From Pseudomonadota bacterium (GTDB lineage Bacteria > Pseudomonadota > Gammaproteobacteria > Acidiferrobacterales > Acidiferrobacteraceae), in the NCBI GenBank assembly GCA_021827145.1, contig JAKAXK010000004.1:1-53971 (forward strand): a DNA stretch of 53,971 nucleotides, given 5' to 3'. Position 1 is the stretch's first letter. Each line of letters begins with the position of its first letter. The notes beneath the pieces are model-generated. The model saw only the letters and a list, made by a program, of their open reading frames with translations. It ran no database searches and was not told the origin of the DNA. The position numbers and the translations under genes were made by a program. Positions 11,977-30,004 of the stretch are shown here, piece by piece.

Positions 11977-12005
11977 AAGGGGAGCCCAAGGAGTAGGAGA
12001 TTGCT

Positions 12006-13115: not shown

Positions 13116-13131
13116 GCGGCTGCCATACGCC

Positions 13132-14259: not shown

Positions 14260-14300
14260 GCGGCCGGGCGGGATGTGTCGCAATGGCAAAAGGAGAGGCG

Positions 14301-14942
14301 ATGGGACGACAACAGACAAGACAGCGACAAACAGTCTCGTGGGCGATAGCGTTGCTGTGGGTTGTGATGGTCGGCGCGCCCGCGTGGGCGGCGCACACGG
14401 GGCCCGCGGTGGCGGTGGTGCGGCAATTCCAGGATACCCTGCTCGCCGTTATGAAGGCAGGTCAGTCGCTCGGGTTCGAGGGGCGCTACCGGAGGCTCAT
14501 GCCGGCCGTGCGCGCGAGCCACGATCTTCCCTATATCGCGGAGGTGACCCTGGGTCCCTACTGGGACAAGCTCTCGCTGGCCGAGCGCCGGGCCTTCGTG
14601 GCCGCATTCGCGCGGCTGACCGTGGCGACCTACGCGGCGCAGTTTCGACGCGATTCGGGGCAGGCCTTTCACCGGACCGCCTCGCAGGCGGTGGCGCAGG
14701 GCGACGTCTTGGTCGAGACCGAGCTTAGTACCGACGGACACAAGGAGGCGACCATCGACTACCTCGTGGCCCCAAGCGCCGGACGATGGCGGATTGTCAA
14801 TATCGTGGCCAACGGCGTGAGTGATCTCGCGTTGAAGCGTGCTCAGTATACGGCCATCATCCGCAAGAAAGGATTTCCGGTTTTACTGTCGATTTTACGC
14901 GCCAAGGTCACAGAGCTGAGCCACGGCGCGCCGAAGAGGTAG
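14301..14942 (+). CDS. hpnM: Hopanoid-associated MlaC-like periplasmic lipid carrier HpnM
   Basis: A 213-residue protein of the Ttg2D/MlaC family with a signal peptide ending near PAWAAHT (about residue 33). The core resembles MlaC (LGPYWDKLSLAERRAFVAAFARL, then DYLVAPSAGRWRIVNI), a fold with a lipid-binding pocket. The start at 14301 is chosen because GGAG sits five bases upstream and gives the signal peptide; the frame is open far into hpnB, but that part is a shadow. The next gene encodes the matching outer-membrane MlaA-type lipoprotein, suggesting a dedicated hopanoid or phospholipid shuttle. Confidence 0.9.
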   Translation: MGRQQTRQRQTVSWAIALLWVVMVGAPAWAAHTGPAVAVVRQFQDTLLAVMKAGQSLGFEGRYRRLMPAVRASHDLPYIAEVTLGPYWDKLSLAERRAFVAAFARLTVATYAAQFRRDSGQAFHRTASQAVAQGDVLVETELSTDGHKEATIDYLVAPSAGRWRIVNIVANGVSDLALKRAQYTAIIRKKGFPVLLSILRAKVTELSHGAPKR

Positions 14943-14972
14943 GCGTGGAGGCGGTCACAGCTGCGCGGTCTC

Positions 14973-15827
14973 ATGGTGGGTGAGGCCTGTCAACGAACGA
15001 GGCGGATCATCGGGCGGACCCTCGGTCTTGGCTGTCTCTTGTTTGTGGTGGGGTGCGCGACCACAAGCGGCCCCGATCCTTGGCAGCCCGTGAACCGGCG
15101 GTTCTATGCCTTCAATAGCGACACCGACCGCCTGCTCATGAGCCCCGTGGCGCGCATGTACACGACCGTGACCCCCAAACCCTTGCGGGCCTCGCTCACC
15201 AACTTTTTTCGCAATGTCGCGTACCCGGACGTTATCGTGAACGATTTTCTGCAGGGGCGGATCGGTCAAGGCGCTGGCGATATCGGTCGCCTGGTCGTGA
15301 ATAGCACCCTGGGTCTTTTGGGTCTTTTCGATGTCGCGACCCCGCTGGGGCTGAAGGCTCATGTGGAGGATGCGGGCCTGACGCTTGGGCGCTGGGGCGT
15401 GGGGCGCGGCCCCTATCTGGTGTTACCCTTCGTTGGCCCCGATACCCTGCGTAACACCCCGAGCCTCCTCATGGGGATATTCACGAATGTGCTCTACTAT
15501 GTGGGCAACTCGGCCTTGACGGTGCCCCTCACGGTGTTCGATGTCATCAATGCGCGCGCAAACGCCAGCGGTTCCCTGCGTTATATGCGCGAGAACGCGG
15601 TCGATCCGTATGTCTTCGCGCGCGATGCCTATCTCCAGCATAGGAGTTATCTCCAGGATGGCGGCCATCTCCCCTTGAAGGCGATCGAGCAGATGATGTT
15701 GCCACCGAGCCCCGCGCCGGTGTCCGACCCCCCGCCGCTTGCGGATCCCGCGCCCGCGGCCCGGCCGGTGGTCACGGTGCCAGGACGGGCCGCGGTGGCC
15801 ATCAGGCCGCCGGCGGCCGCGGGCTAG
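14973..15827 (+). CDS. mlaA: MlaA/VacJ-family lipoprotein of the hopanoid locus
   Basis: An outer-membrane lipoprotein that in the Mla system removes mislocalised phospholipid from the outer leaflet. The 284-residue product has a signal peptide with lipobox VVGC (Cys at about 28), the MlaA core (DPWQPVNRRFYAFN, VNSTLGLLGLFDVAT, GPYLVLPFVGPDTLRN) and a Pro/Ala-rich tail of about 45 residues that most MlaA proteins lack. The ribosome site at the 14973 ATG is weak. Its place between hpnM and hpnA suggests it works with HpnM on hopanoid-bearing membranes; a role as ordinary MlaA remains possible. Confidence 0.88.
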   Translation: MVGEACQRTRRIIGRTLGLGCLLFVVGCATTSGPDPWQPVNRRFYAFNSDTDRLLMSPVARMYTTVTPKPLRASLTNFFRNVAYPDVIVNDFLQGRIGQGAGDIGRLVVNSTLGLLGLFDVATPLGLKAHVEDAGLTLGRWGVGRGPYLVLPFVGPDTLRNTPSLLMGIFTNVLYYVGNSALTVPLTVFDVINARANASGSLRYMRENAVDPYVFARDAYLQHRSYLQDGGHLPLKAIEQMMLPPSPAPVSDPPPLADPAPAARPVVTVPGRAAVAIRPPAAAG

Positions 15828-15842
15828 GCCCTTGGAGGGGCG

Positions 15843-16841
15843 ATGAAGGCCTTGGTGACGGGGGCCTCCGGGTTCGTGGGTTCGGCGGTGGCCCGTATCT
15901 TGCTGGCGCACGGACATGGCGTACGCGTGCTCGTGCGCAAGACGAGCGCGCTTGGCAATATCGCCGGCCTGCCGGTCGAGCGTATCGAGGGGGATTTGCT
16001 GGACCCGGCGTCCCTGCGGGGGATCATGAGCGACTGCGACGCCTTGTTTCATGTGGCGGCCGACTACAGGCTGTGGGCACCCGATCACGAGGCCCTGTTC
16101 CGCGCCAATGTTGAAGGGACGCGCGCGCTCATGGAGGAAGCCTTGACGGCGGGCGTACGGCGCGTCGTCTATACGAGCAGTGTCGCCACTTTGGGTCTGA
16201 TCCCGGGAGGCGTGGCCGACGAGGAGACACCCGTCGCGTGGGCCGACATGATCGGGCCCTATAAGCGATCGAAGTTCCGTGCCGAGGAGGAGGTTCGGCG
16301 CTTGATCCGACTGGGCCTTCCGGCTGTGATCGTCAATCCCTCCACGCCCGTGGGGCCGCGTGACATCAAACCGACTCCGACCGGACGATTGGTGCGTGAC
16401 GCCGCGCGCGGGCGCATACCGGCGTATGTCGACACCGGCCTGAACATCGTCCATGTCGATGATGTGGCGCACGGGCATCTGCTCGCCCATGCGCAGGGGC
16501 GGGTGGGCGAACGTTATATTCTGGGTGGGGAAAACCTGACACTGGAGAGGATCTTGACGATCATCGCGCGCGAGGCCGGCCGCAAGCCGCCCTCGTTACG
16601 CCTGTCGCGTCACCTGCTCTGGCCGGTGGCCTTGGCGTCCGAGGCCTACGCACGCGTGCGCCGATCGGCCACACCGCTTGTGACCCTGGACGAGCTGCGC
16701 ATGGCCTCGAAGCTCATGTTCTTCGATTCGGCCAAGGCCCGGCGCGAGCTTGGCTATGCGCCGCGTCCCGCGCAGGAGGCGCTGGCGGATGCCGTCGCCT
16801 GGTTCTTGGGCCCGGACGCACGCGGTGCGGGTCTGCGCTGA
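15843..16841 (+). CDS. hpnA: Hopanoid-associated sugar epimerase/dehydratase HpnA
   Basis: An extended short-chain dehydrogenase/reductase of 332 residues with the NAD(P)-binding GASGFVG at residues 7-13, the active-site YTSS and YKRSK segments (the YxxxK pair), and the VNPSTPVGPRDIKPTPTGR stretch characteristic of HpnA. It is predicted to act on the sugar part of composite hopanoids or its nucleotide-sugar precursor; the reaction is not established. GGAGG is placed well before the ATG. Its TGA overlaps the hpnI ATG by one base. Confidence 0.92.
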   Translation: MKALVTGASGFVGSAVARILLAHGHGVRVLVRKTSALGNIAGLPVERIEGDLLDPASLRGIMSDCDALFHVAADYRLWAPDHEALFRANVEGTRALMEEALTAGVRRVVYTSSVATLGLIPGGVADEETPVAWADMIGPYKRSKFRAEEEVRRLIRLGLPAVIVNPSTPVGPRDIKPTPTGRLVRDAARGRIPAYVDTGLNIVHVDDVAHGHLLAHAQGRVGERYILGGENLTLERILTIIAREAGRKPPSLRLSRHLLWPVALASEAYARVRRSATPLVTLDELRMASKLMFFDSAKARRELGYAPRPAQEALADAVAWFLGPDARGAGLR

Positions 16842-17968
16842 TGGATGCGTGGTTCTTGGTCGCGGTCCACGTCGTGGCGGTCGTAGGCGTCGTCATGCTC
16901 GCGGTCCAGATCCTTGCGTGGCGATCCTGGCCACGGCGCGATCCCCCCGTGGCGAGTCTGCCGCCGATCTCAATCCTGAAGCCCCTGTTTCGCGACGGGC
17001 CGCGTCTCTATGAGTGTTTGCGGTCGTTCTGCCAGCAAGACTATCCAGTCTATGAGGTTGTGTTTGGTGTGCAGGACCCCGCGGATCCAGCCATCGAGGT
17101 CGTGCGTAGGCTGCAGGCGGAGTTCCCGGATCGCGCCCTCACGCTCGTCATCGATCCCACGCGCCATGGCGGCAACGCCAAGGTCAGCAATCTCGCAAAT
17201 CTCATGAGCCGTGTCCGCCACGATATCTTGGTGTTGGCCGACGCCGACATCCTCGTGGGCGAGGACTATCTACGGTGTCTGGCTGGCCCCGTGCAGGACC
17301 CCGAGGTCGGGATCGTGACCTGCCTTTATCGGGGGGCGCCGCTTGGGCGGCTGTGGGACCGGCTCGGGGCGCTTTTCATACAGGACTGGTTCGTGCCCCA
17401 GGTGCTTGTGGCCAAGATGCTCGGGTCTACGGATTTCGCGTTCGGGGCGACCATTGCCTTGCGGCGCTCCACCTTGGCCGCGGTGGGGGGATTCGATGCC
17501 TTGGCCTCGCAATTGGCGGACGACTATCAACTCGGCGCGCGCGCCCGGGCCCTTGGTCTGCGCACCGTGCTGTCGCCCTACCGGGTCGAGACGGTGGTCG
17601 ATGAGCCGCGGTTCGTTGATCTTGCGGCCCACCAGCTGCGATGGTTGCGCACCATCCGTCTCATCAACCCCTGGGGCTACGTCTTCTCCGGTATCACCTT
17701 CGGCGTGCCGATCACCCTTGGCGCAGCCTTGATCGCCGAGCAGGATTCTCTATGGGGCTTCGCGATTCTGGCGATGGTCTTGCGGCTCGTGTTACATTTT
17801 GAGGCTTGCCGGCACCAAGGCGTGCGCCGGCACTTCGGGCTCGTTCCTCTGGCAGACGCCTTGCTCTGGGGTCTCTGGGTGGCCGGACTGAGTGGCCGCA
17901 CTGTGCGGTGGCGCGCAGCGGTCCTCGCCGTAGGCGACGATGGGACTATCAAGGCTAATCGGGAGTAA
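16841..17968 (+). CDS. hpnI: Hopanoid glycosyltransferase HpnI (ceramide glucosyltransferase-like)
   Basis: Transfers an N-acetylhexosamine to bacteriohopanetetrol, the first step toward the cyclitol ether. The 375-residue protein has an N-terminal membrane helix, a GT21-type catalytic domain (ISILKPLFRDGP, DxD in VLADADILV, QLADDY and a late HQLRWLRTIR motif of the Q/RxxRW type) and C-terminal membrane helices. It is translationally coupled to hpnA and is followed after five bases by hpnJ, then hpnK, which carry out the later head-group steps. Confidence 0.93.
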   Translation: MDAWFLVAVHVVAVVGVVMLAVQILAWRSWPRRDPPVASLPPISILKPLFRDGPRLYECLRSFCQQDYPVYEVVFGVQDPADPAIEVVRRLQAEFPDRALTLVIDPTRHGGNAKVSNLANLMSRVRHDILVLADADILVGEDYLRCLAGPVQDPEVGIVTCLYRGAPLGRLWDRLGALFIQDWFVPQVLVAKMLGSTDFAFGATIALRRSTLAAVGGFDALASQLADDYQLGARARALGLRTVLSPYRVETVVDEPRFVDLAAHQLRWLRTIRLINPWGYVFSGITFGVPITLGAALIAEQDSLWGFAILAMVLRLVLHFEACRHQGVRRHFGLVPLADALLWGLWVAGLSGRTVRWRAAVLAVGDDGTIKANRE

Positions 17969-17973
17969 GTTTT

Positions 17974-19392
17974 ATGATGAAGACGCTTTTTCTGCATCCC
18001 CCGTCCTATGAGGGTTTTGATGGCGGCGCCGGATCGCGCTATCAGGCCAAACGCGAGGTGCGCTCCTTCTGGTACCCGACATGGCTTGCGCAACCGGCCG
18101 CCCTGGTGCCCGGCAGCAAGCTCATTGACGCCCCGGCGGCGGGATTCGATCTCGACACCGTTTTGCCGATGGCGCAGGGCTACGAACTTGCGATCCTGCA
18201 CACGAGTTCGCCCTCGTTTGCCTATGACGTCAAGGTCGCCGAGGCCTTGAAGCGGGCCTACCCCGATCTCAAGATCGGCCTTGTTGGCGCCAAGGTGGCG
18301 GTGGCCCCCGACGAGTCGCTCACTGCGTCGCCGGCCATCGACTTCGTGGCGCGCGAGGACTTCGACTTCACGATCAAGGAGGTCGCCGAGGGTCGTCCCT
18401 ACGGGGAGATCGACGGGCTGACCTTTCGTGACGAGCAGGGCCGGGTGGTGCACACGCCCCATCGTGCGCCCATCGAGGACATGGATCAGCTGCCCTTCGT
18501 CACCGAGGTGTATAAGCGCGATCTGCGTGTCGAGGATTATTTCATAGGGTATCTGAAGCACCCCTACGTCTCCTTCTATACCGGGCGCGGGTGTAAGTCG
18601 CACTGCACCTTTTGTCTCTGGCCGCAGACCGTCGGCGGTCATCGCTATCTGGTGCGCAGCGCCGAGCATGTCGTGGAGGAGGTGAAGCTGATCCAGCGCT
18701 ACTTCCCCCAGGTGGCCGAGGTGTTCTTCGACGATGACACCTTCACGGATAACGCCCCGCGCGCCGAGGAGATTGCGCGCCGACTGGGACGGCTCGGCGT
18801 GACCTGGTCGTGCAACGCCAAGGCCAATGTCCGCTACGAGACGCTCAAGGTCATGCGCGACAACGGCCTGCGTTTACTGCTCGTGGGTTATGAATCCGGC
18901 AACCAGAAGATCCTGAACAACGTCAAAAAGGGCGTGCGTCTCGATATCGCGCGGCAGTTCTCCCGCGACTGCCACAAGCTTGGGATCACGGTCCACGGGA
19001 CATTCATCCTCGGACTGCCGGGCGAGACGCGCGAGACCATCGAGGAGACCATACGGTTTGCCAAGGAGATCAACCCCCACACGATCCAGGTATCGCTGGC
19101 CGCGCCTTACCCCGGGACCTTTTTGTATAAGCAGGCCTTGGAAAACGGCTGGCTGCAGGAGGAAAACAGTCAGCATCTCGTCAATGATCGTGGTGTGCAG
19201 ATGAGCGCCTTGAGCTACCCGCACCTGAACCATACCGAGATCTACGATTCCGTAGAGTCGTTTTACAAGCAGTTTTATTTCCGCTCCGGGAAGGTCGCGG
19301 AGATGTTGGGCGAGATGGTCAAGAGCCCGCAGATGATGGGGCGGCGTTTGCGCGAAGGGGTTGAGTTCCTTCGATTCTTCAGGCAGCGCTAG
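17974..19392 (+). CDS. hpnJ: B12-type radical SAM enzyme HpnJ (hopanoid cyclitol ether formation)
   Basis: The 472-residue protein has an N-terminal cobalamin-binding-like domain (about 1-150), the radical SAM cysteines C207-x3-C211-x2-C214 (GCKSHCTFC), and the family's FDDDTFTDN and GTFILGLPGET motifs. In Burkholderia, HpnJ is needed to convert the glucosamine head group of bacteriohopanetetrol into the cyclitol ether, a ring contraction. Two adjacent ATGs (17974 and 17977) follow a GGGAG site. The hpnK start touches its stop codon. Confidence 0.93.
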   Translation: MMKTLFLHPPSYEGFDGGAGSRYQAKREVRSFWYPTWLAQPAALVPGSKLIDAPAAGFDLDTVLPMAQGYELAILHTSSPSFAYDVKVAEALKRAYPDLKIGLVGAKVAVAPDESLTASPAIDFVAREDFDFTIKEVAEGRPYGEIDGLTFRDEQGRVVHTPHRAPIEDMDQLPFVTEVYKRDLRVEDYFIGYLKHPYVSFYTGRGCKSHCTFCLWPQTVGGHRYLVRSAEHVVEEVKLIQRYFPQVAEVFFDDDTFTDNAPRAEEIARRLGRLGVTWSCNAKANVRYETLKVMRDNGLRLLLVGYESGNQKILNNVKKGVRLDIARQFSRDCHKLGITVHGTFILGLPGETRETIEETIRFAKEINPHTIQVSLAAPYPGTFLYKQALENGWLQEENSQHLVNDRGVQMSALSYPHLNHTEIYDSVESFYKQFYFRSGKVAEMLGEMVKSPQMMGRRLREGVEFLRFFRQR

Positions 19393-20247
19393 GTGTCGCA
19401 GGCGCCACGCCGACTGATCGTTACGGCGGACGATTTTGGACTCTCGTGGGCCGTGAACGAGGCGGTTGAGCGCGCCTCGCGTGATGGTGTATTGACCTGT
19501 GCGAGTCTGATGGTGGGCGAAGAGGCGGCCGCGGACGCGGTGGCGCGTGCGCGCAGGCTGCCGGCGCTGCGCGTGGGGCTGCATGTCGTGGTGGCTGACG
19601 GTCGGCCGGTGTTGGCGCCGGCGCGTATCCCGGCCTTGTGCGACGCGCATGGGCGGCTCGACGGCAGGTTGGTGCGTGCCGGGTTCCGGTTCTTTTTCAG
19701 GCCTCGGGCGCGACGGCAACTGGAAGACGAGATCGAGGCGCAGTTCGCGGCCTTTGCGCGCACTGGCCTTCCTTTGGATCACGTCAATGCCCATAAGCAC
19801 ATGCATCTCCATCCGACCGTCCTCGGCTTGATCCTGCGCATTGGCCGCCGCTATGGGATGCGCGCCGTGCGCCTGCCCTATGAGCCGTCCCTGGTTGCGG
19901 TGTCGCCGCGGGCTTGGCGGCGGTATTGGCGGGCGGTGAGCGTGATGGGTCTCTGGACCTGGCTCATGCGCCAGAGGCTCGAGCGGGCCGGGGTCGCGCA
20001 TAACGATGCGGTGCTGGGGCTTCTGCAGTCGGGGGCGCTGGATGAGTCCTCGGTGCTTGCGCTCCTAAAGAGGCTCCCATCCGGCGTGACTGAACTCTAT
20101 TGTCATCCGGCGATAGACGATGATGCGCAGGCGCTGACCTTGGGCTATAGGAAGAGGGCCGAGTTTGAGGCCTTGGTGAGCCCCAAGGTCGCCGCCGCCC
20201 TCCAGGAGGGCGATGTCGTGCGTGTGGGTTTCGGTGATCTCGGTTAA
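19393..20247 (+). CDS. hpnK: Hopanoid amino-sugar deacetylase HpnK (YdjC/ChbG-like)
   Basis: Removes the acetyl group from the N-acetylhexosamine on bacteriohopanetetrol before HpnJ acts. The 284-residue YdjC-fold protein has the metal-site Asp pair in VTADDFGLSWAVNEAV and the His-rich metal/catalytic segment VNAHKHMHLHP, plus a late YCHPA motif. The only sensible start is the GTG directly after the hpnJ stop, with the ribosome site inside the end of hpnJ. It is followed by hpnN after 17 bases. Confidence 0.92.
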   Translation: MSQAPRRLIVTADDFGLSWAVNEAVERASRDGVLTCASLMVGEEAAADAVARARRLPALRVGLHVVVADGRPVLAPARIPALCDAHGRLDGRLVRAGFRFFFRPRARRQLEDEIEAQFAAFARTGLPLDHVNAHKHMHLHPTVLGLILRIGRRYGMRAVRLPYEPSLVAVSPRAWRRYWRAVSVMGLWTWLMRQRLERAGVAHNDAVLGLLQSGALDESSVLALLKRLPSGVTELYCHPAIDDDAQALTLGYRKRAEFEALVSPKVAAALQEGDVVRVGFGDLG

Positions 20248-20264: not shown

Positions 20265-22922
20265 ATGCGTGACAAGCGCCAGTCAGGGAGTGTCGATCGG
20301 CTCGACCGCCTGTACTATGGGATATTGATCGGGCTTGCCGATTTTTCCCGCCGCCATGCCTGGCCTGTGTTGCTCGCCGCCACCTTGTTGAGCGCGCTAT
20401 CGCTCGCCTATACCGTCACGCATTTTGCCATAAGCACCAATATGGGCAAGATGCTTTCGCAGGATCTGCCCTTCGAGCGCGCCCAGGAGCGCTTCGACCG
20501 TGCCTTTCCAGGATTGAACAAGACCTTGCTTGTCGTTCTGCACAGCGACTCGCCTTCACTCGCTCGGGAGGATGCGGCGCGTCTCACGCATTGGTTGCGC
20601 GGCCATGGGCGGGGCATTACCTTCGTGAACCAGCCGGACGGCGGACGTTTCTTTGCGCGCGAGGGTCTGCTCTATCTGCCGCGGAAGGCCCTCTGGCGGC
20701 TCTCCGACCGGCTGTCTCAGGCGCAACCTTTCATGGCGACGCTAGCCGCCCACCCGACCTTGCCGCGCTTTACGGGACTGCTCGAGGCGGCTTTGGCGCG
20801 CGCCAAGGTTCCGGGCGCCTCGCTTCCGGGGCTTGCCACGGTGCTGAAGGGATTTCGGACCACTTTGCAGGGCCAGATGCAGGGACGCTACGCGCAGATG
20901 CCGTGGGGGAGCCTCATGGGGATGGCGGCCCCCGGCGGGGGGGCCGCCGGTGACAGCTTCGTCGTGGTCAAGCCCCGCTATAACTATAGGGGAGGGGCGC
21001 CTATACGGACCGCCCTGCGCAGCGTGCGGGCCGGTGCGCAAGCGCTTGGGCTTGATGCGGCGCACGGGGTAACGGTACGCGTGACGGGGTCCGCCGCGCT
21101 CGACAACGAGCAGGTGAAGACCGTGTCACAAAGCGCGGGTCTCGCCACGGGTCTCTCGCTCGCTCTGGTGCTCATCATGTTGGTGCTCGGTCTGCACAAG
21201 CCGGGCTATGTCGCGATCATTCTGGTCACGTTGTTTATGGGTTTGACGTGGACCGCAGCCTTCGCCTTGCTTGCGACCGGCCCCTTGAACCTCATCTCGG
21301 TTGCGTTCGCGGTGTTGTTCGTGGGCTTGGGCGTCGATTTCGGGATCCAGTTTTGCATCCGCTATCAGGAGGAGGGCGCGCACGGCGACAATGCCGAGGC
21401 CATCCGCGCAACCGCGCGGGGCGCGGGCAGCGCTCTGAGTCTCGCGGCAGTGGCGGCCGCCATCAGCTTCTTTTCCTTCGTGCCGACGAGTTACGCCGGT
21501 ATCGTCGATCTCGGCATCATTTCCGGTACGGGGATGTTCTTGGCGCTCTTCGCCAATCTGACCGTGACCCCGGCCTTGCTCACGATCCTGATCAAGGGCC
21601 ATCCGCGCGGCCGGCCGCGGGGGCGCCTGCGGGCGCTCTTGGCGCGTATCCCGGTGGCGCGCCATCCCGGTCGCATCGTGGTGGGCGCGCTCGTGGTCGC
21701 TCTGGGCCTCATCCCCATGATCCTTGCGAGCCGTTTCGATTTCGACCCCATGCACCTGCAGAACCCGCATAGCGAGGCGGTAGCGACATTCGAGTCGCTG
21801 CTCAAGGATAGTCGTATCTCGCCGTATCCCATCGACATCCTAGAGCCGAATCTGGCAGCCGCCCGCGGCATGGCCGCGCGTCTCGCGGGACAGCCGACCG
21901 TGGGTCGAGTCCTGACCGCCGACAGTTTCGTGCCGGCGCACCAGGGTGCGAAACTTGCCGTTATCTCGCAGATGGCCCTCCTGGTGCCACCCTTTTCGAT
22001 CGATCCGCGCACCACGAACCCTCCGAGCGCCTCCGATGTACGTGCGGCGCTCGAGAGTTTATCGAAGAGTCTGAGGACCTTTATCGCGGCCGACGGCACC
22101 GGGACGACAGTGTCGGCCGCGCGGCATTTGGAGGCAGCCCTCGGTCCCTATCTCGCGAAGTTCGGCCATGACCGCGCCGCGCTTTCGATGCTGCAGCAGC
22201 GCGTGATCGCGACCTTGCCTTGGCAACTCGCGCAACTGCAGGCGGCCCTGAACGCGCGGCGGCTGACGCTCGCGACCTTGCCCAAGTCGCTGCGACGGCA
22301 ATTCGTGAGTGCCGACGGGCAGGCTCGTGTCGAGGTCTTTTCCTCGCTCGACCTGAATCGCAATAGCAACATCCGTCGTTTCGCGCTCGCGGTCGAACGG
22401 ATCGCGCCGGACGCCGTGGGGCCACCCGTGCTGCTCGTGCAAGGGGGCCACGCCGTGGTCGATGCCTTCCAGGAGGCGACAGCGCTCTCGTTCGTGCTGA
22501 TCACGGCAGTCTTGCTGCTTACGCTAAGAAGTGTGGCGGACGCGCTCACCATCCTTGCTCCCCTGATTCTGGCGGCCATGACCGCTGTGGCCGTGATGTG
22601 GGTAGTCGGGATATCATTCAATCTCGCCAACATTATCGTGCTTCCCTTGCTTATCGGTTTGAGTGTCGCGTTTAGCATCTATCTCGTCGTGCGTTGGCGA
22701 TGCGGCGTGGGCACGGCGCTCTTACTCGACACCAGTACCTCGGAGGCGGTAGTGTTCAGTGCCCTGACGACTATGTGTTCGTTCGGAAGTCTCGCCGTCT
22801 CCTCGAACCCAGGCATGGCGGTGTTGGGAGAGACTCTGTTCATAGCGATGGGGGCTGCGCTCATCACGATTCTTCTGGTATTGCCGGCGATCCTGAGCCT
22901 GCGGCAGGCGGCGAATGGATAG
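20265..22922 (+). CDS. hpnN: RND-family hopanoid transporter HpnN
   Basis: An 885-residue inner-membrane protein of the MMPL/RND type with two halves, each with one lead helix, a periplasmic domain of about 200 residues and a bundle of five or six helices (for instance the segments from 21130 to 21590 and from 22480 to 22900). HpnN proteins move hopanoids to the outer membrane in Rhodopseudomonas and support stress tolerance in Burkholderia. It overlaps hpnL by eight bases (ATGGATAG), so the two are coupled. Confidence 0.93.
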   Translation: MRDKRQSGSVDRLDRLYYGILIGLADFSRRHAWPVLLAATLLSALSLAYTVTHFAISTNMGKMLSQDLPFERAQERFDRAFPGLNKTLLVVLHSDSPSLAREDAARLTHWLRGHGRGITFVNQPDGGRFFAREGLLYLPRKALWRLSDRLSQAQPFMATLAAHPTLPRFTGLLEAALARAKVPGASLPGLATVLKGFRTTLQGQMQGRYAQMPWGSLMGMAAPGGGAAGDSFVVVKPRYNYRGGAPIRTALRSVRAGAQALGLDAAHGVTVRVTGSAALDNEQVKTVSQSAGLATGLSLALVLIMLVLGLHKPGYVAIILVTLFMGLTWTAAFALLATGPLNLISVAFAVLFVGLGVDFGIQFCIRYQEEGAHGDNAEAIRATARGAGSALSLAAVAAAISFFSFVPTSYAGIVDLGIISGTGMFLALFANLTVTPALLTILIKGHPRGRPRGRLRALLARIPVARHPGRIVVGALVVALGLIPMILASRFDFDPMHLQNPHSEAVATFESLLKDSRISPYPIDILEPNLAAARGMAARLAGQPTVGRVLTADSFVPAHQGAKLAVISQMALLVPPFSIDPRTTNPPSASDVRAALESLSKSLRTFIAADGTGTTVSAARHLEAALGPYLAKFGHDRAALSMLQQRVIATLPWQLAQLQAALNARRLTLATLPKSLRRQFVSADGQARVEVFSSLDLNRNSNIRRFALAVERIAPDAVGPPVLLVQGGHAVVDAFQEATALSFVLITAVLLLTLRSVADALTILAPLILAAMTAVAVMWVVGISFNLANIIVLPLLIGLSVAFSIYLVVRWRCGVGTALLLDTSTSEAVVFSALTTMCSFGSLAVSSNPGMAVLGETLFIAMGAALITILLVLPAILSLRQAANG

Positions 22923-23988
22923 AGGGCCTACGGACCGCCGCGGTCACGGAGCACCCCCCTGCGGGACGCCCACGGCAGGCGCGCGGCCGTGGAGCGCCAT
23001 CCTCATGGGCGCCTCGGCGGCCGTAGGGCTCGGGCTCACCGCATGGCTACTCGAGCGCCTTGGATGGCGGCCTGTGGCGGGGCTCTTGATGCGCGCGGGT
23101 GTCGGGCTGTTATGGCTCGTTCCCCTGCGTTTTCTGGTTGTGGCCTGCGAAGTGCGCGGGTGGAAAGTCTTGCTTGGGCCCCGGCGGGGCGTCTCCTGGC
23201 TGCTACTCATCTGGCTTGGCATGGTGCGCGATGCCGTGAATACCTTTCTGCCCGTGGCGCGCGTGGGCGGCGAATTCGTGGCTATTCGACTCCTGCGTCT
23301 AAAGGGCGTGAGCGGCGCCAGCGCCTCGGCAAGCGTGATCGTGGAGACCAGTGTCACACTGGTCCTGCAGGTCGTGACGACCCTCGGCGGTATCGCGCTT
23401 ATGCTCCCCGTAATGGGCGCGGGCCGGGCCCTGCCCGGACTAGGGGTCGGTGTCGTCGGGGCCCTGATCGTGGTGGTGGCCTTCGTCGTAGTCCAAGTGC
23501 GTGTCGGACTCGGCACTTTCGTTGATCGCACCCTCGGGCGCATTCTGCGGATGATGGGTCGCGAAGATCTTCCGCTGCTTCCGGGGCTCGATCGTCGCGT
23601 GTCGGACCTCTATCGACGCCCCGCGCTGCTGTTGCGCTGCGCGTTTTGGCAGCTGACCGGCTTCCTGGGAGGCGCGGCCGAGGTTGCGGTGTTGGCGGCC
23701 TTGATGCATGTTCCGCTCACGGTCGCGCAGGTCCTTATCTTTGAGGCCTTGATCCAGGCCATCCATAGCGTATCGTTCATCGTACCGGGCGCGCTCGGTA
23801 TCCAGGAAGGCGGATTTGTCGGCCTTGCCCTGTTGCTTGGGGTGCCGCCGGACGCGGCCTTCGGGATCGCGCTTGGGCGCAGGCTGCGGCAACTCGCCAT
23901 CGGGCTACCCGTGCTCATTTCATGGCAGTGGCGAGAGTGGCGTTGGCGGCGCCTTTCGTCTGCGCAAGCAGCCCCGACGGGCGGTTAG
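22915..23988 (+). CDS. hpnL: Hopanoid-associated membrane protein HpnL, copy 1
   Basis: A 357-residue polytopic protein of the lysylphosphatidylglycerol-synthase transmembrane (flippase-like) family. The first 30 residues are polar and Pro/Gly-rich; about eight helices follow. Landmarks are the VRDAVNTFLPVARVGGEFVA loop and the late IVPGALGIQEGGFVGLAL segment, both shared with the second copy at 27881. The function in hopanoid metabolism is not established; transport or flipping of intermediates is the usual suggestion. A 117-base gap follows before squalene synthase, the largest in the locus. Confidence 0.88.
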   Translation: MDRGPTDRRGHGAPPCGTPTAGARPWSAILMGASAAVGLGLTAWLLERLGWRPVAGLLMRAGVGLLWLVPLRFLVVACEVRGWKVLLGPRRGVSWLLLIWLGMVRDAVNTFLPVARVGGEFVAIRLLRLKGVSGASASASVIVETSVTLVLQVVTTLGGIALMLPVMGAGRALPGLGVGVVGALIVVVAFVVVQVRVGLGTFVDRTLGRILRMMGREDLPLLPGLDRRVSDLYRRPALLLRCAFWQLTGFLGGAAEVAVLAALMHVPLTVAQVLIFEALIQAIHSVSFIVPGALGIQEGGFVGLALLLGVPPDAAFGIALGRRLRQLAIGLPVLISWQWREWRWRRLSSAQAAPTGG

Positions 23989-24105
23989 TAGGGCGAGCAA
24001 GTTCAAGAAGAAGGGACTTTATGGTAAGGTGCCGGCCTCCATGGCAGAGTGTGTGCGCCACGGCTCAGGGAACCGCACCACCGATGGCGCATCAGGAAGA
24101 GGTAC

Positions 24106-25164
24106 ATGTCCGTATCGGTACAAGACTCAATGGTGAACAGGGACGGCCGTGATGATGAGCGGTTCCAGGCTGCCATGTTGCAGGACGTATCACGCACCTT
24201 CGCCTTGACGATCCCCGAGCTTCCCGCGGCGTTGCGGGAGGTCGTTGGAAACGGCTATTTGCTCTGCCGTATCGTCGATACCATCGAAGATGACCCAGGC
24301 TTGAGCAGTGTGCAAAAGCGCCACTTCTGCACCTTCTTCGCCGAGGTTGTGGCGCGACGGGCCGATGCCGTCCAGTTCGCGCACAGTCTCGACCTCGTTC
24401 TAGCCTCTACGGTGCCCAAGGCCGAGCGGCTTTTGGTGCGCGAGACCGCGCGCGTGATCGCCATCGGGGACGGTTTCACGACGACCCAGCGCCAGGCGCT
24501 CGAGACCTGCGTGGCTATCATGGCGGACGGCATGGCCGAGTTTCAGGAACGCAAAGACCCGGCGGGCCTGCCCACACTGGCCGATATGGACCGCTACTGT
24601 TATTGCGTGGCAGGTGTAGTGGGGGAACTGCTCACAAGACTCTTTTGCGAGTACTCGCCGCAGATAAGGCGCCACGAGGATCGGCTTATGGCGCTCGCGG
24701 TTTCGTTTGGGCAGACTCTTCAGATGACCAACATCCTGAAGGATATCTGGGAGGATCGGCGGCGGGGGGCCTGCTGGCTACCGCGGGACGTATTCGCCCG
24801 CCATGGTTTCGATCTCGCGGGTCTGGAGCAGGGTCCGGATGATCCGCGGTTTCACGAAGGATTGGGCGAACTCATCGACGTGGCGCGTACCCATGCCTGT
24901 CGAGCCTTGGATTATGTGTTGTTGCTCCCGCGCGCGGAGGCGGGGCTCAGGAACTTTTGTCTCTGGGCCCTTGGGATGGCGGTTCTGACCTTGCGCAAGA
25001 TCGACAAGAGACGGGATTTCCGTAGCGGACAGGATGTGAAGATCACACGGCGTAGCGTCAAGGCGACGGTGGCAGTGAGCCGCGTGTCGGCTGGTCACAA
25101 TGCGCTTTTGCGGATTTTGTTCACGCTTTCGGGAGGCGCGCCGCGCGTATCGCGTGGTGCCTGA
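24106..25164 (+). CDS. sqs: Squalene synthase (single-enzyme, eukaryote-type)
   Basis: Condenses two farnesyl diphosphates and reduces presqualene diphosphate to squalene with NADPH. The 352-residue all-helical protein has both Asp-rich motifs, D58-T-I-E-D62 and D213-I-W-E-D217, with the surrounding SRTFALTIPELP and MTNILKDIWEDRRRG characteristic of farnesyl-diphosphate farnesyltransferases rather than HpnC or HpnD. The start at 24106 follows AGGAAGAGG; the frame is open for 19 more codons but these look non-coding. No hpnC, hpnD or hpnE is present, so this one gene is the squalene source for Shc, 34 bases downstream. Confidence 0.9.
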   Translation: MSVSVQDSMVNRDGRDDERFQAAMLQDVSRTFALTIPELPAALREVVGNGYLLCRIVDTIEDDPGLSSVQKRHFCTFFAEVVARRADAVQFAHSLDLVLASTVPKAERLLVRETARVIAIGDGFTTTQRQALETCVAIMADGMAEFQERKDPAGLPTLADMDRYCYCVAGVVGELLTRLFCEYSPQIRRHEDRLMALAVSFGQTLQMTNILKDIWEDRRRGACWLPRDVFARHGFDLAGLEQGPDDPRFHEGLGELIDVARTHACRALDYVLLLPRAEAGLRNFCLWALGMAVLTLRKIDKRRDFRSGQDVKITRRSVKATVAVSRVSAGHNALLRILFTLSGGAPRVSRGA

Positions 25165-25198
25165 CCGGACGGCATCAGTGCTCGAGGCGGCGGATGGC

Positions 25199-27142
25199 AT
25201 GAAGAGTCAGGGTATTCCGGCCAAGAACCGGGAGAGTCGCGAGTCTTTGGCGCAAGACGCGGAAGTCGCTTTTCTCGATGCGGCTTTGGCGCAGGCGCGC
25301 GATCGCCTGCTCGCCGAGCAGGCCCCGGAAGGCCATTGGTGCTGGCCGCTCGAGGCCGATTGCACGATTCCGTCCGAGTATATCCTCATGATGCATTTCA
25401 TGGACGAGATCGATGCCGATCTCGAGGCTAAGCTCGCGCGCTACATCCGTCGTCGGCAGATGGAGGAGGGCGGGTGGCCCTTGTACTACGATGGGCACTT
25501 CGATATGAGTGCCTCGGTCAAGGCGTACTATGCGCTGAAGCTTGCCGGTGACGACGTCAATGCCTCGCACATGGCCCGCGCCCGCGCGCTCATCTTGGAG
25601 CACGGCGGGGCCGCGCGTTGCAATGTCTTTACACGCATCGCGCTCGCGCAGTTCGGCCAGGTCCCGTGGCGCGCCATCCCCTTCATGCCCGTGGAGCTGC
25701 TGTTGGTCCCACGGTGGTTCCCCATCACTCTCGCCAAGGTTTCGTATTGGTCACGGGCGGTGATGGTGCCGCTGCTTGGGCTCTGCAGCCTGAAGGTGCG
25801 CGCGCGCAATCCGCGCGGCATTGGCATAGCCGAGCTCTTCGTGCGGCCGCCCGATGAAGAGCGTGACTACTTCCCGGTCCGCTCGTTCATGAACTTCGCC
25901 TTGTGCAAGCTCGAGCGCATCGGATTCCGTCTCGAGAGCACCATCCCCCGGCGCCTGCGGGCGCGGGCCTTGGCGCGGGCCGAGGCCTGGATCGTCGAAC
26001 GGCGAAACGGGACCGGGGGTTTGGGCGCGATCTTTCCGGCGATGGTGAACGCTTACGAGTTTCTGGCCGCGCGCGGCTATGCGCCCGATCACCCCTACCG
26101 ACGTGAAGCCTTGATCGCGATCCAAAAGCTTCTGCTCGTGGAGGGCGACGAGGCCTATTGTCAGCCGTGCGTCTCGCCCATATGGGATACGGGGCTTGTG
26201 TGCCTCGTGTTGCTGGCGGTCGACCGCGAGGGTACGAAAGATGCGGTGAGACGCGGACTCTCCTGGATGCGCGAGCGCCAGCTTCTCGATGCCCCGGGCG
26301 ACTGGCGTGAGAGCCGCCCGAACCTTGCCGGCGGCGGCTGGCCTTTCCAGTTCGAGAACAGCCACTATCCGGATCTGGATGATACGAGTGTCGTGGCCTG
26401 GGCGATGGAGGAGTCGCGCGACGAGGCGTTTGCCGTATCGATCCGGCGCGCCGCCGATTGGGTGGCGGGCATGCAGTCGCGCAATGGCGGCTTCGGGTCG
26501 TTCGATGTCGACAATACCCATTATTACCTGAACGAGATCCCGTTTGCTGATCATGGGGCCCTGCTCGATCCGCCGACGAGCGATGTCACGGCGCGCTGCG
26601 TCACTTTGCTGGCGCGCGCCGCGGCCGATGACCGCTATCGCCCGGCGATAGAGCGGGCGATCGCCTATCTGCGCTCCGAGCAGGAGCCGCATGGGGCATG
26701 GTTTGGCCGCTGGGGAACGAACTACATCTACGGAACCTGGTCGGTGCTGGTGGGCCTGCGCGCCGCCGGGCTCGACCGCGATGATCCCGCCATCCGTGCC
26801 GCGGTCCGCTGGCTCAACACGGTTCAACGGGCGGATGGGGGTTGGGGTGAGAGCAACGACTCCTATCATGACCCGGCAGGCGCCGGCATGAGTACGCGCA
26901 GCACCGCGTTCCAGACCGCATGGGCGCTGCTCGCCTTGCTTGCCGCAGGTGAGGCGGACAGCGAGCCGGTGCGTCGAGGCGTGCGTTATCTGCTCGCGCA
27001 TCGCGAGCCCGGGGGGCTGTGGGAGGATGTCGAGTTCACGGCGCCTGGCTTCCCGCGCGTCTTTTACCTCAAATACCATGGTTACGCGCGCTACTTCCCG
27101 CTCTGGGCCTTGGCGTGTTATCGCGAGCAGGCGGCGCGCTAG
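25199..27142 (+). CDS. shc: Squalene-hopene cyclase
   Basis: Cyclises squalene to hopene/diplopterol at the cytoplasmic membrane. The 647-residue protein carries the protonating motif DLDDTS with Asp392, Asp394 and Asp395, and repeated QW-type motifs (GGWPLYYDG, GGWPFQFEN, GGFGSFDVDN, GAWFGRWG, GGWGESND, GGLWEDVEF). The normal ending YFPLWALACYR is intact. The start is uncertain: ATG 25199 gives a typical length, while GTG codons at 25154 and 25178 would add 15 or 7 residues and the first would overlap the synthase. It is also called hpnF. Confidence 0.95.
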   Translation: MKSQGIPAKNRESRESLAQDAEVAFLDAALAQARDRLLAEQAPEGHWCWPLEADCTIPSEYILMMHFMDEIDADLEAKLARYIRRRQMEEGGWPLYYDGHFDMSASVKAYYALKLAGDDVNASHMARARALILEHGGAARCNVFTRIALAQFGQVPWRAIPFMPVELLLVPRWFPITLAKVSYWSRAVMVPLLGLCSLKVRARNPRGIGIAELFVRPPDEERDYFPVRSFMNFALCKLERIGFRLESTIPRRLRARALARAEAWIVERRNGTGGLGAIFPAMVNAYEFLAARGYAPDHPYRREALIAIQKLLLVEGDEAYCQPCVSPIWDTGLVCLVLLAVDREGTKDAVRRGLSWMRERQLLDAPGDWRESRPNLAGGGWPFQFENSHYPDLDDTSVVAWAMEESRDEAFAVSIRRAADWVAGMQSRNGGFGSFDVDNTHYYLNEIPFADHGALLDPPTSDVTARCVTLLARAAADDRYRPAIERAIAYLRSEQEPHGAWFGRWGTNYIYGTWSVLVGLRAAGLDRDDPAIRAAVRWLNTVQRADGGWGESNDSYHDPAGAGMSTRSTAFQTAWALLALLAAGEADSEPVRRGVRYLLAHREPGGLWEDVEFTAPGFPRVFYLKYHGYARYFPLWALACYREQAAR

Positions 27143-27159
27143 GCCCCCCCTACGGGTTT

Positions 27160-27831
27160 GTGGTGGCGCTTGCTGCCGAGGCGCGCGCCTTCGGGCGACC
27201 GCCTCGTGGTCGCGCCGTGGCCTTGCCTGGCGGCCATTGGCTGGGGGTGTGCGGAATGGGTGCTACGCGCGCGCAGGGCATGGGTCTCGACTTGGCGGCG
27301 CAGGGCGTGCGCACCTTGGTGAGCTTTGGGACTTGCGGCGGATTGGCACCGGGCCTGCGGCCCGGCACTTTGCTTTGCCCGCGCGCGGTGTGTGACGAGC
27401 GGGGGGCCCATTACCCGACCGACGTGCCCGCGGATCTCCTCGAAGCCCTGCCCATGGCGCGGGTCGTCGACGTCCTGCTGTCGGTTGCGGCCCCTGTCTA
27501 TGAGGTCGCAGGCAAAGAGGTGCTCTTCCGGCGCTACGGGGCCGCGGGCGTCGATATGGAGAGCGCGGCGCTTGCGCGCGTGGCCTTCGAACGGGGACTG
27601 CGTTTCTTGGTCCTGCGCGCGGTCGTCGACCCCTATGACGAGCCGCTTCCGGAGCGCCTGCTGGCGGCGGTCGACGCATGGGGGCGACCGCGCCCGATGG
27701 CCACCGTGAGGGCGCTGGTCACTGGTCCGGCGGCGTGGGTCGCGGCGGCGCGTCTGGGTCGCCATTTTGGGAGGGCGCAGAGGACCTTGGCCGCCGCCGC
27801 GGCCGCCGCCATGCGTGCGAGGCCGCGCTAA
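27160..27831 (+). CDS. hpnG: Hopanoid nucleosidase/phosphorylase HpnG
   Basis: Removes adenine from adenosylhopane, giving ribosylhopane, the step after HpnH. The 223-residue protein has the nucleoside-phosphorylase fold with LVSFGTCGGLAPGLRPGTLLCP and the GVDMESAAL motif that holds the ribose. The start is one of two adjacent GTGs (27160, 27163); in-frame upstream ATGs lie inside shc and give an implausible extension. The C-terminus is alanine-rich. Confidence 0.88.
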   Translation: MVALAAEARAFGRPPRGRAVALPGGHWLGVCGMGATRAQGMGLDLAAQGVRTLVSFGTCGGLAPGLRPGTLLCPRAVCDERGAHYPTDVPADLLEALPMARVVDVLLSVAAPVYEVAGKEVLFRRYGAAGVDMESAALARVAFERGLRFLVLRAVVDPYDEPLPERLLAAVDAWGRPRPMATVRALVTGPAAWVAAARLGRHFGRAQRTLAAAAAAAMRARPR

Positions 27832-27880: not shown

Positions 27881-28897
27881 TTGTTGACGGAGGCGCGCGG
27901 CCCGCGCGCATGGGCGCGGTTTGTGCCGATGGGGGCGGGCCTGCTGGGTCTCGCGGGTGCGGTTTTGCTGTTCGCGCGCCATGACCCGGCGCGCATCCTG
28001 CATCTCGTCGCCTTGGCGGGCCTAGGCATACTGTGGCTTGTGCCGGTGCGGCTTGCAGCTATGGCGGCGAGCGCTGAGGGTTGGCGCGCGCTCTTCCCTA
28101 AGCCCGCCACCGTCTCTCTCCGGTTTCTCACCTGGATGGCCTTTGTACGCAACGCCATCAATACCTTGCTGCCGGTCGCGCATGTCGGTGGCGAGCTGGC
28201 CGCGGTGCGGTCTTTGACAGGGCGCGGCGTGCCCGCGTCCATCGCCATCGCGGGCATCATAGTCGAGATCACCGTGAACCTCTTTGCGCAGATGGGCTTC
28301 ACCTTGCTTGGGATCGATCTCCTTCTGTCCTATGTGGGGACTGCGCCACTCATTCAGCGCCTCTGGTGGGGGCTTGTCGTGGCTTTGCCGGTCGTTCTGG
28401 CCTTCGTGTTCCTGCAGCGCCGATCGCGACCCTTTAGCCGCTTATATCGCGCCCTATCCCGCTTGAGTAACACAAGCGGTATGACCGCCGCCCACGCGCA
28501 GGCCGTGGACGACAGGCTCGTCGCCCTGTACGGGCGCCTCGGGGCGCTTGCGCGCTGCGCCTTCTGGCAGGTCGTGAGCCTTGTGGGCGGCGCTGGCGAA
28601 TTCTGGCTCATACTACGGCTCTTGCATGAACCGGGTGGCCCCAGGCTCGCATTATTGCTTGAATCTCTGACGCAGGCCTTGCAAAGCGCGGCCTTCATGG
28701 TGCCAGCCGCGCTTGGGGTGCAGGAGGGCGGCTTGATTCTGATCGGGGCCGTGGCCGGTCTGTCGGCGAATACGGCGCTTGCCGTCTCGGCTGTGCGGCG
28801 CGTGCGCCAAGTCGGTCTCGCGCTGCCCGTGCTGTGGCTCTGGGTGCATGGCGAGCGCAAAAGGCGTTTGGCACCGATTGATCCCGAATGTCGCTAA
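27881..28897 (+). CDS. hpnL2: HpnL-type membrane protein, copy 2
   Basis: The 338-residue protein is a paralogue of the protein at 22915. It shares the FVRNAINTLLPVAHVGGELAAVR loop, the LARCAFWQVVSLVGGAGEF segment and the MVPAALGVQEGGLIL end, with about eight helices. The start is probably TTG 27881, because GGAG lies five bases upstream and no ATG or GTG in frame gives the correct N-terminus. A seven-codon open frame (ATG 27864) overlaps this start and might couple translation. It is the nearest neighbour of the sulfotransferase, 93 bases downstream. The symbol only marks it as the second copy. Confidence 0.83.
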   Translation: MLTEARGPRAWARFVPMGAGLLGLAGAVLLFARHDPARILHLVALAGLGILWLVPVRLAAMAASAEGWRALFPKPATVSLRFLTWMAFVRNAINTLLPVAHVGGELAAVRSLTGRGVPASIAIAGIIVEITVNLFAQMGFTLLGIDLLLSYVGTAPLIQRLWWGLVVALPVVLAFVFLQRRSRPFSRLYRALSRLSNTSGMTAAHAQAVDDRLVALYGRLGALARCAFWQVVSLVGGAGEFWLILRLLHEPGGPRLALLLESLTQALQSAAFMVPAALGVQEGGLILIGAVAGLSANTALAVSAVRRVRQVGLALPVLWLWVHGERKRRLAPIDPECR

Positions 28898-28990
28898 GGG
28901 GCCGGATGCGCGGGAAAGTGTGGTTCTGCTAGCATCACACCGATGGGGCGTTATGGTGTTTGCGAGGCGCGAAACAAAGGAGGAGACGCG

Positions 28991-30004
28991 ATGACAGCGG
29001 TGCAGTGGCCCAACCTTTTCATTGTCGGGGCGGTCAAGAGTGGCACGACCTCCCTCTATGCCTACCTGAAGCAGCATCCGGATATTTTTTTCCCGGAGAT
29101 GAAAGAACCCCATTTTTTTACAAAACCCACGCCATCGGAGGCGCAAAAACATCTCATCACCTTCGTGGGTGACGAGGCAAGCTACCTGCGCCTCTATGAG
29201 CGCGCCGAGGGCAGGCGCTTGCGTGGTGACGCGAGCCCCTCGTACTTATGGTCTGCGCAGGCGGCCACCGACATCGCCGCAGTTTCCCCGCGGGCGCACA
29301 TCATCATCATTCTGCGTGACCCCATCGAGCGGGCCTACGCACACTATCTGATGGACTATTCGGAGGGCGTCATCGACCGGCCGTTTCTCGAGGCCCTGGA
29401 GCGTGATTGGTGTCGGCCCGATAAGGGTTGGGGGGTCTCCCAGCTCTATGTCGAGCTCGGGCTCTATACAGAGCCGATCAGGCGCTACCGGGCCCTGTTT
29501 GGGCACGAGCGGGTGTTGATCCTCTTGCTTGAGGATTTAAAGCGGGATGCGCAGGCGGTGCTTGCACGCATCGCACACTTTCTCGAGATACCGGCGGAAC
29601 CCATGACGTCCATCGATACCGGAAAGGTCCATAACTCCTACAAAGAACCCAAGGGATCCTGGGCGAGGCGTCTGGCCGGGCACCCCGTGAGCCGATTTCT
29701 GGGGGAGCGGGTCATGCCACGGCGACTCGGCGAATATATATGGAATCGTTGGATGCAGAGGGAGGCGCCTAAGCCACCGATCGATCCCCGCGCCGCGGCC
29801 TTCCTTCAGAACATCTATACCCCCGAGATCCTGGCGCTCGAGGCGGAGCTCGGCCGACCCTTGGCCGAGCTCCGGCGCAGCTGGGTGCATACCACAAGCC
29901 CCGCCGCGCCCCGCGGGCCCCTGCTGTCTGCCTCTCCTCAGGCGGTCTATGCGGGCCAGGGCGCGAGACCGGTCCTCGGGTCGAATCGGCACGTGCCCTC
30001 CTGA
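28991..30004 (+). CDS. PAPS-dependent sulfotransferase at the end of the hopanoid locus
   Basis: The 337-residue cytosolic protein has the 5'-phosphosulfate loop FIVGAVKSGTTSLY (Lys16, Ser17) and the 3'-phosphate motif RDPIERAYAHY (Arg109). In most relatives the second motif has Ser in place of Ala117, so cofactor binding may be slightly changed. A catalytic His candidate lies in EPHFFTK. The closest general type is the heparan/lipid sulfotransferase group. The start follows a strong AAGGAGGA. It is on the same strand as, and 93 bases after, the second hpnL, and the next gene is convergent. Its substrate is unknown; a hydroxylated or amino-sugar hopanoid is the contextual guess. The C-terminal 40 residues are Pro/Ala-rich. 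Confidence 0.85.
   Translation: MTAVQWPNLFIVGAVKSGTTSLYAYLKQHPDIFFPEMKEPHFFTKPTPSEAQKHLITFVGDEASYLRLYERAEGRRLRGDASPSYLWSAQAATDIAAVSPRAHIIIILRDPIERAYAHYLMDYSEGVIDRPFLEALERDWCRPDKGWGVSQLYVELGLYTEPIRRYRALFGHERVLILLLEDLKRDAQAVLARIAHFLEIPAEPMTSIDTGKVHNSYKEPKGSWARRLAGHPVSRFLGERVMPRRLGEYIWNRWMQREAPKPPIDPRAAAFLQNIYTPEILALEAELGRPLAELRRSWVHTTSPAAPRGPLLSASPQAVYAGQGARPVLGSNRHVPS

Follow-up and report, generated by a model that had tools for sequence, protein, structure and literature searches.

The window analysed here, a stretch of 53,971 nucleotides (positions 1 to 53,971 of contig JAKAXK010000004.1, assembly GCA_021827145.1) from a gammaproteobacterium of the family Acidiferrobacteraceae, contains a full hopanoid (hpn) locus with all genes on the + strand. 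The last two genes encode a second HpnL-family membrane protein (HpnL2) and a sulfotransferase of the type that uses 3'-phosphoadenosine 5'-phosphosulfate (PAPS). The initial annotation had described a sulfotransferase with a KSGTT loop ending a hopanoid locus, directly after a second HpnL gene and on the same strand, and both the coordinates and the protein families hold. The pair is laid out as follows.

27881..28897, + strand: hpnL2, second HpnL-family membrane protein, 338 residues, TTG start (TIGR03476, 265.3 bits, cut-off 195.65; PF03706, 68 bits; sister of HpnL1 in the tree)
28898..28990, + strand: gap of 93 bases between hpnL2 and the sulfotransferase gene, read from the sequence
28991..30004, + strand: PAPS-type sulfotransferase, 337 residues, ATG start, no membrane segment (PF13469, PF00685, conserved residues, 3rnl match, Foldseek, hydropathy)

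The open frames as listed start earlier, at 27767 for hpnL2 and 28943 for the sulfotransferase, while we use the TTG at 27881 and the ATG at 28991. Since the genes 3' of the sulfotransferase (glyoxalase/VOC family and SMP-30 family) are on the opposite strand, the sulfotransferase closes the hpn locus.

We determined how well this pair is conserved among relatives by searching 96 genomes, including the window's own. A close orthologue of the sulfotransferase (64-100% identity, at least 463 bits) is present in 17 of them, the next best match being far weaker (95.9 bits, 34% identity). These 17 are the window's own genome plus every other genome of its genus (g1, 13 genomes) and every genome of a second genus (g2, 3 genomes). 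In 16/16 relatives whose loci were fetched, an HpnL gene is found directly ahead of the sulfotransferase on the same strand, with gaps of 22-114 bases as called by script, although the contig of G017, where the pair is at the edge, covers no more than the C-terminal 70 residues of HpnL. The other flank is less stable, with the VOC gene not found in six of the 16 (G007, G012, G013, G014, G016, and G017) within the 2.5-11 kb examined. The sulfotransferase is under purifying selection, with a ratio of nonsynonymous to synonymous substitution rates (dN/dS) of 0.05-0.19 in the five pairs examined. The gene order recurs in all 16 relatives and dN/dS is low in these five pairs, so it is not due to chance, and the same two observations rule out a local insertion or an annotation artefact. 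The pair is thus real, old within the lineage, and has been kept as a pair over two genera, occupying the conserved place in the hpn cluster that would be expected of an hpn gene. This excludes that the adjacency is found only in this genome, which the initial annotation had considered. A third genus (g3), represented by one genome (G015), has one HpnL and no orthologue of the sulfotransferase, only matches with 36% and 39% identity (71.8 and 37.1 bits); its sqs-shc-hpnG contig stops inside hpnG and does not cover the region beyond.

The sulfotransferase matches two Pfam families, Sulfotransfer_3 (PF13469, 3.1e-16, 60.7 bits, cut-off 27) and Sulfotransfer_1 (PF00685, 50.6 bits, cut-off 22), but no NCBIfam model at E 0.001. 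For comparison, we aligned it with copies from Acidithiobacillus-type genomes, by which we mean records L011 and L012 and the genomes found in a relatives search of L011 (G096). These copies belong to the same subfamily and are of two kinds, copy A (55-62% identical) and copy B (45-51%). The KSGTT motif corresponds to residues 16-20, and K16, T19, T20, E39, H41, and R109 are invariant in 17 rows from the window's family, 26 copy-A rows, and 5 copy-B rows, E39 being present in all 65 aligned rows. We take K16-T20 to be the 5'-phosphosulfate loop (KxGTT), R109 the 3'-phosphate arginine, and E39 (with H41) the expected catalytic base, its role presumably being as in heparan enzymes. In 3-O-sulfotransferase 3A1, the glutamate of an E-P-H-F-F segment, which aligns with the window sulfotransferase, is the catalytic base. 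A second group of residues, L120, M121, and D122 together with K145, G146, W147, G148, and S150 (K-G-W-G-x-S), is unchanged throughout both families but differs among the outgroup rows; these residues may mark the acceptor site. The genome also encodes an adenosine 5'-phosphosulfate (APS) kinase, which scores above its cut-off, suggesting that PAPS can be made by this organism; this is only consistent with sulfate transfer from PAPS. A second sulfotransferase-like frame is found elsewhere in the same genome (G000, contig 54, 1822-2409), with 25.4 bits to PF00685. As for copy B, it was seen at 45-49% identity in L171, L172, L173, L174, and L175, and in L175 it lies near genes for a LysR-type regulator, a 2OG-Fe(II) oxygenase, and an ABC transporter, the same gene clusters occurring in L171 and L173.

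Among solved structures, the best sequence match was to 3rnl from Alicyclobacillus acidocaldarius (E 7.1e-36), the other 11 matches being heparan sulfotransferases. A structure predicted from 12 sequences, with a mean predicted local distance difference test score (pLDDT) of 75.3 and a predicted template modeling score (pTM) of 0.73, was used to search for similar folds with Foldseek. Again, 3rnl came first (E 1.5e-17, template modeling score of 0.88 on the target), followed at ranks 2-21 by heparan glucosamine 3-O- and N-sulfotransferases (among them 1t8t, 3uan, 6xkg, 1nst, and 8ccy), which share the fold and the 5'-phosphosulfate loop. Curacin and olefin synthase domains were at ranks 22 and 23, with tyrosylprotein and SULT enzymes after them. 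Because the closest folds to the model are 3rnl and, after it, the heparan glucosamine enzymes, the acceptor is probably a sugar or amino sugar, which would fit the hopanoids expected from HpnI and HpnK and, equally, lipopolysaccharide (LPS) or peptidoglycan. The heparan-type fold of the model and the glutamate at position 39 are as expected of a heparan-type glucosamine sulfotransferase; glucosamine is a candidate acceptor. A membrane-anchored enzyme was ruled out, with hydropathy peaking at 1.14 over 19 residues and a basic stretch (222-256) without a notable amphipathic peak.

The rest of the locus could supply such an acceptor. The genes upstream of hpnL2 are, in order, ispH, hpnH, hpnB-like, hpnM, mlaA-like, hpnA, hpnI, hpnJ, hpnK, hpnN, hpnL1, sqs, shc, and hpnG.

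11017..16841, + strand: front of the locus, ispH, hpnH, hpnB-like (348.7 bits, cut-off 379.25), hpnM, mlaA-like (116 bits, cut-off 375), and hpnA
16841..17968, + strand: hpnI, bacteriohopanetetrol glucosamine glycosyltransferase (TIGR03472, 432.3 bits)
17974..19392, + strand: hpnJ, radical SAM protein (TIGR03471, 816.2 bits)
19393..20247, + strand: hpnK, YdjC-type protein (TIGR03473, 378 bits)
20265..22922, + strand: hpnN, transporter (TIGR03480, 911.3 bits)
22915..23988, + strand: hpnL1 (TIGR03476, 239 bits)
24049..25164, + strand: sqs, squalene synthase (PF00494, 2.8e-57)
25100..27142, + strand: hpnF/shc, squalene-hopene cyclase (TIGR01507, 802.7 bits)
27019..27831, + strand: hpnG, phosphorylase (TIGR03468, 142.3 bits, under the cut-off of 187.1)

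The NCBIfam matches of hpnB, hpnG, mlaA, and sqs are below the curated cut-offs, and sqs is named via Pfam. The listed frames of sqs and shc overlap by 65 bases (25100-25164) and those of shc and hpnG by 124 (27019-27142), so some of these genes may start later than listed. For hpnM, the listed frame (13863-14942) opens far inside the hpnB-like gene, and the HpnM match begins only at residue 169. The presence of HpnI, HpnJ, and HpnK implies amino-sugar or cyclitol hopanoids, in keeping with the head groups that the initial annotation had assigned to this locus.

In the literature searched, we found no paper on sulfated hopanoids or bacteriohopanepolyol sulfate esters, and, among papers that contain both words, no title or abstract opening joining hopanoids with a sulfotransferase. 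The hpn cluster of Acidithiobacillaceae, which is said to resemble the one in Acidiferrobacter sp. SPIII (PMC8886135), shares its sqs-hpnFGAIJKNL-hpnHM content with the window's locus but differs in having, as described, one hpnL and no sulfotransferase, a word absent from the main text of that paper. Likewise, the three Acidithiobacillaceae-type hpn clusters that we read in this analysis have one HpnL each and no sulfotransferase. A 2025 paper states that hpnA, hpnB, and hpnL have no established function and reports no further obvious candidate genes close to alphaproteobacterial hpn clusters (PMC12583986). A sulfotransferase of A. thiooxidans ATCC 19377, AtCHST15, appears in a chondroitin-sulfation screen as one of four proteins expressed successfully (PMC11784081); it comes from the same organism group as copies A and B, and may be either of these or another protein. 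The portions available of two further papers (PMC10512742 and PMC12542670) contain nothing on the acceptor.

To place the pair in time, we built trees for both proteins. The HpnL tree is unrooted and has 31 rows (13 HpnL1, 13 HpnL2, and 5 others); it covers the window's genome and 12 relatives, since four of the 16 (G001, G010, G013, and G017) have partial or split copies and were left out. HpnL1 and HpnL2 each form one clade, and the two group together, apart from G015 and four Acidithiobacillus-type rows, with support of 100/96. If the root is on the Acidithiobacillus side, HpnL1 and HpnL2 are sisters and hpnL would have been duplicated in the window's family after g3 had branched off and before g1 and g2 separated. 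In the sulfotransferase tree, which has 60 rows (L122 and L123 excluded as split matches), the window's family forms one clade (100/99) that groups with copy A of the Acidithiobacillus line (99/98), with copy B outside. For G103, the only long match (51%) was entered as copy A but falls with copy B. The root of this tree is less sure because of long outgroup branches, about which the program warned. The simplest reading of these trees, and the most likely one, is that the gene was transferred from the Acidithiobacillus line, on the same branch as the hpnL duplication; the alternative is loss of the sulfotransferase in other lines.

Our reading is that the window sulfotransferase is an envelope sulfotransferase. 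It would be a soluble, cytosolic, PAPS-dependent enzyme with a heparan-sulfotransferase-like fold, from a subfamily seen here only in two families, the Acidithiobacillus-type genomes and the window's own family, which we take to be Acidiferrobacter-type acidophiles. The ancestor of the window's family would have acquired the gene from the Acidithiobacillus line on the branch where hpnL was duplicated, and the transferred gene would have come to lie just after this additional hpnL, as the last gene of the locus. The enzyme would move sulfate from PAPS to a head group (sugar, amino sugar, or polyol) on an envelope molecule that is still on the cytoplasmic side. The acceptor would be the head group of a bacteriohopanepolyol, above all the glucosamine expected from HpnI and HpnK, and the sulfated product would be carried outward by HpnL2 together with the HpnN, HpnM, and MlaA-like transport proteins. 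In this genus, the acceptor that we favor over any other single one is a hopanoid head group, an assignment that we make tentatively and at clearly less than even chances. The conserved pair, the APS kinase, the glucosamine-type fold, and HpnI/HpnJ/HpnK are the parts of the sulfated-hopanoid pathway proposed in the initial annotation that were borne out, while the distribution of the gene and the gap in front of it, considered below, count against that pathway.

We wondered whether the sulfotransferase follows hopanoid synthesis more broadly. In a class sample of 369 genomes, an orthologue was found in three (the window's own, G004, and G391, where it has the same place as in G096), the next match having 39% identity. 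In a phylum sample of 398 genomes, it was found only in the window's own genome, the next match having 151.6 bits and 34% identity. Among the 57 relatives of L011, the subfamily is present in 28. The first 30 of these 57 genomes, which include all 28 holders, were searched for squalene-hopene cyclase (SHC), and a match was found in 28, of which 27 are above the cut-off. Both genes occur in 27 genomes, with the sulfotransferase only in G113, SHC only in G123, and neither in G125.

Several of our observations weigh against a hopanoid acceptor, among them the place of the gene outside the window's family. In L011 and L012, there is no hpn gene within 10 kb of the sulfotransferase, and in the seven genomes that have both genes on one large contig (G098, G101, G104, G111, G114, G118, and G119) it is more than 290 kb away from SHC, while the two are on different contigs in the remaining Acidithiobacillus-type genomes. 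Instead, the copies in these genomes, away from the hpn cluster wherever this can be determined, are mostly behind an RlpA-like gene with DPBB and SPOR domains, which lies directly ahead of the sulfotransferase in 22/28 loci. A 23rd match (L112) was not counted, being confined to the stretch shared with dapE; of the five other loci without a match, L105, L121, and L123 are truncated ahead of the sulfotransferase and L106 and L113 are truly without the RlpA-like gene. In L168 (8073-13204, - strand), the order is dapC, dapD, dapE, then the RlpA-like gene, the sulfotransferase, phosphoenolpyruvate synthase, and phosphoglycerate mutase, and this order is, judging by gene clusters, largely common to the other Acidithiobacillus-type loci compared. 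Furthermore, none of the nine other SHC genomes among the relatives (G015, G019, G022, G027, G031, G035, G064, G067, and G084) has an orthologue, and no match at E 1e-30 was found in the other 47 SHC genomes of the phylum sample. Association with hopanoid producers across lineages, which would be expected of an hpn gene, is therefore not seen, and a general hpn gene that had been missed so far is ruled out. With this distribution among SHC genomes, the sulfotransferase tracks two families and not hopanoid making as such. The adjacency on which the initial annotation relied is thus firm in two genera but, where this can be determined, extends neither to the Acidithiobacillus-type genomes nor to other SHC genomes, and it may reflect one historical event.

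Also to be set against a hopanoid acceptor are features of the gap and of the enzyme itself. The initial annotation had pointed out that 93 bases leave room for a separate promoter, and a promoter-like element does appear to be conserved there.

28904..28909, + strand: GGATGC block, starting 26 bases before TAGCAT, a possible -35 region with a spacing longer than usual (gap comparison)
28927..28935, + strand: extended -10-like element TGCTAGCAT (TGnTAnnAT kept in genus g1 gaps)
28978..28985, + strand: putative ribosome binding site AGGAGGAG (read from the sequence, with similar purine-rich stretches ahead of the start in relatives)

We compared this gap across genus g1, using 13 of its 14 genomes (all but G007, which has a 22-base gap); the gap sequences are otherwise divergent. 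TGnTAnnAT, a motif that we take to resemble an extended -10 promoter, occurs in 11/13 (mean of 0.07 and at most 2 in shuffles), TAnnAT in 13/13 aligned rows, and GGAT[GA][CG]G in 10/13 (mean of 0.77 and at most 4), with the provisos that the shuffles are of single bases and preserve base counts only, and that the rows are related and so not independent. In G007 and the three g2 genomes, where the gap is only 22-42 bases long, the element is missing. It is visible only on comparing gaps; a scan with the standard consensus found no promoter in the gap (0.4 expected). It is a candidate promoter for the sulfotransferase, which may be transcribed with the rest of the operon as well as separately; co-transcription with hpnL2 is unsure because of this element. 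As for the enzyme, the fold alone cannot fix the substrate. The match to 3rnl, with 28% identity in the structural alignment, comes with no stated substrate, while the heparan sulfotransferases, which are animal enzymes with polymer acceptors, differ from the window sulfotransferase with 17-21% identity and root-mean-square deviations (rmsd) of 6-10 Å. In addition, the model is weak at residues 211-260 (pLDDT 55-66) and at 141-150 (59). Finally, residue 117 is an alanine in 17/17 family rows and 22/26 copy-A rows, but a serine in 5/5 copy-B and 17/17 outgroup rows. A serine eight residues after the 3'-phosphate arginine is usual in PAPS sulfotransferases, although the Pfam score does not require it.

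We also looked for sulfotransferases of any kind at other hpn loci by searching for PF13469 in 57 SHC genomes without an orthologue, i.e., the 47 from the phylum sample (the window's own excluded), the nine relatives above, and G123. A match was found in 32/57, and by coordinates only one genome, G842, which belongs to another family, has it within 20 kb of SHC, although neighbors that are split over different contigs of a fragmented assembly would be missed. In this genome (contig 18, L218, 3014-4183, - strand), the Sulfotransfer_3 gene is 74 bases from hpnA and divergent from it, in an hpn/mevalonate locus with hpnL, hpnG, hpnH, hpnN, hpnM, and SHC, where it stands beside hpnA, hpnL, and hpnG. 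The gene after it matches PagL weakly, under the cut-off, and the hpnA and hpnG matches are under their cut-offs too. This sulfotransferase is not an orthologue, and no solved chain matched it at E 0.001. We do not count G842 as support because about half a case is expected by chance (by hand arithmetic) and one in 57 was seen.

What else might the enzyme do? The rival that we take most seriously, at a chance somewhat short of even, keeps the envelope sulfotransferase but gives it a non-hopanoid acceptor, such as the LPS core or lipid A, an exopolysaccharide, or a peptidoglycan-linked amino sugar, which would be the same in both families; the gene would have landed behind hpnL2 by accident and been kept with the locus. 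This estimate pools several acceptors, whereas the one given above is for a hopanoid acceptor alone. The RlpA-like and dap neighbors in the Acidithiobacillus-type loci speak for such an acceptor, as do the promoter-like element in the gap and the fact that the nearest folds after 3rnl work on polysaccharides. A single acceptor is also suggested by the eight residues of the candidate acceptor site, which both families keep without exception while the outgroup varies. However, a shared acceptor could still be a hopanoid because the Acidithiobacillus-type genomes encode SHC too, as do 27 of the 28 holders, and a landing accident sits less easily with an HpnL pairing that has outlasted changes on the other flank, with gaps of only 22-42 bases in G007 and g2.

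Two further explanations fare worse. Sulfation of some other small or soluble molecule (an osmolyte, polyol, or xenobiotic, or to relieve the PAPS pool), unrelated to the envelope, would suit a soluble protein without a membrane segment, with no NCBIfam model and with an acceptor that is not fixed. We consider it improbable, since the fold is closer to glycan enzymes than to small-molecule SULT enzymes and the gene has long kept its place in a membrane-lipid locus. That the sulfotransferase is degenerate or inactive, as the alanine at 117 in the 3'-phosphate motif and the unordered tail of the model (301-337) might indicate, is very improbable given the purifying selection and the cofactor and catalytic residues that are invariant in the family and copy-A rows.

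A broader proposal, which we put forward as rather unlikely, is that extreme acidophiles of two families make sulfated hopanoids, with the sulfate on a glucosamine or polyol head group, a second HpnL helping placement in the window's family, and the outer membrane gaining a fixed negative charge. A sulfate is ionized even near pH 1, where phosphate and carboxylate cannot keep their charge, and common hopanoid work-ups (acetylated or neutral extracts) could miss an anionic sulfate ester. If the acceptor is indeed a hopanoid, this would be a new head-group chemistry in a lipid class used as molecular fossils and a possible answer to how membrane surface charge is maintained at very low pH. If it is another envelope glycan, the sulfotransferase subfamily would still be a conserved trait of these two families.

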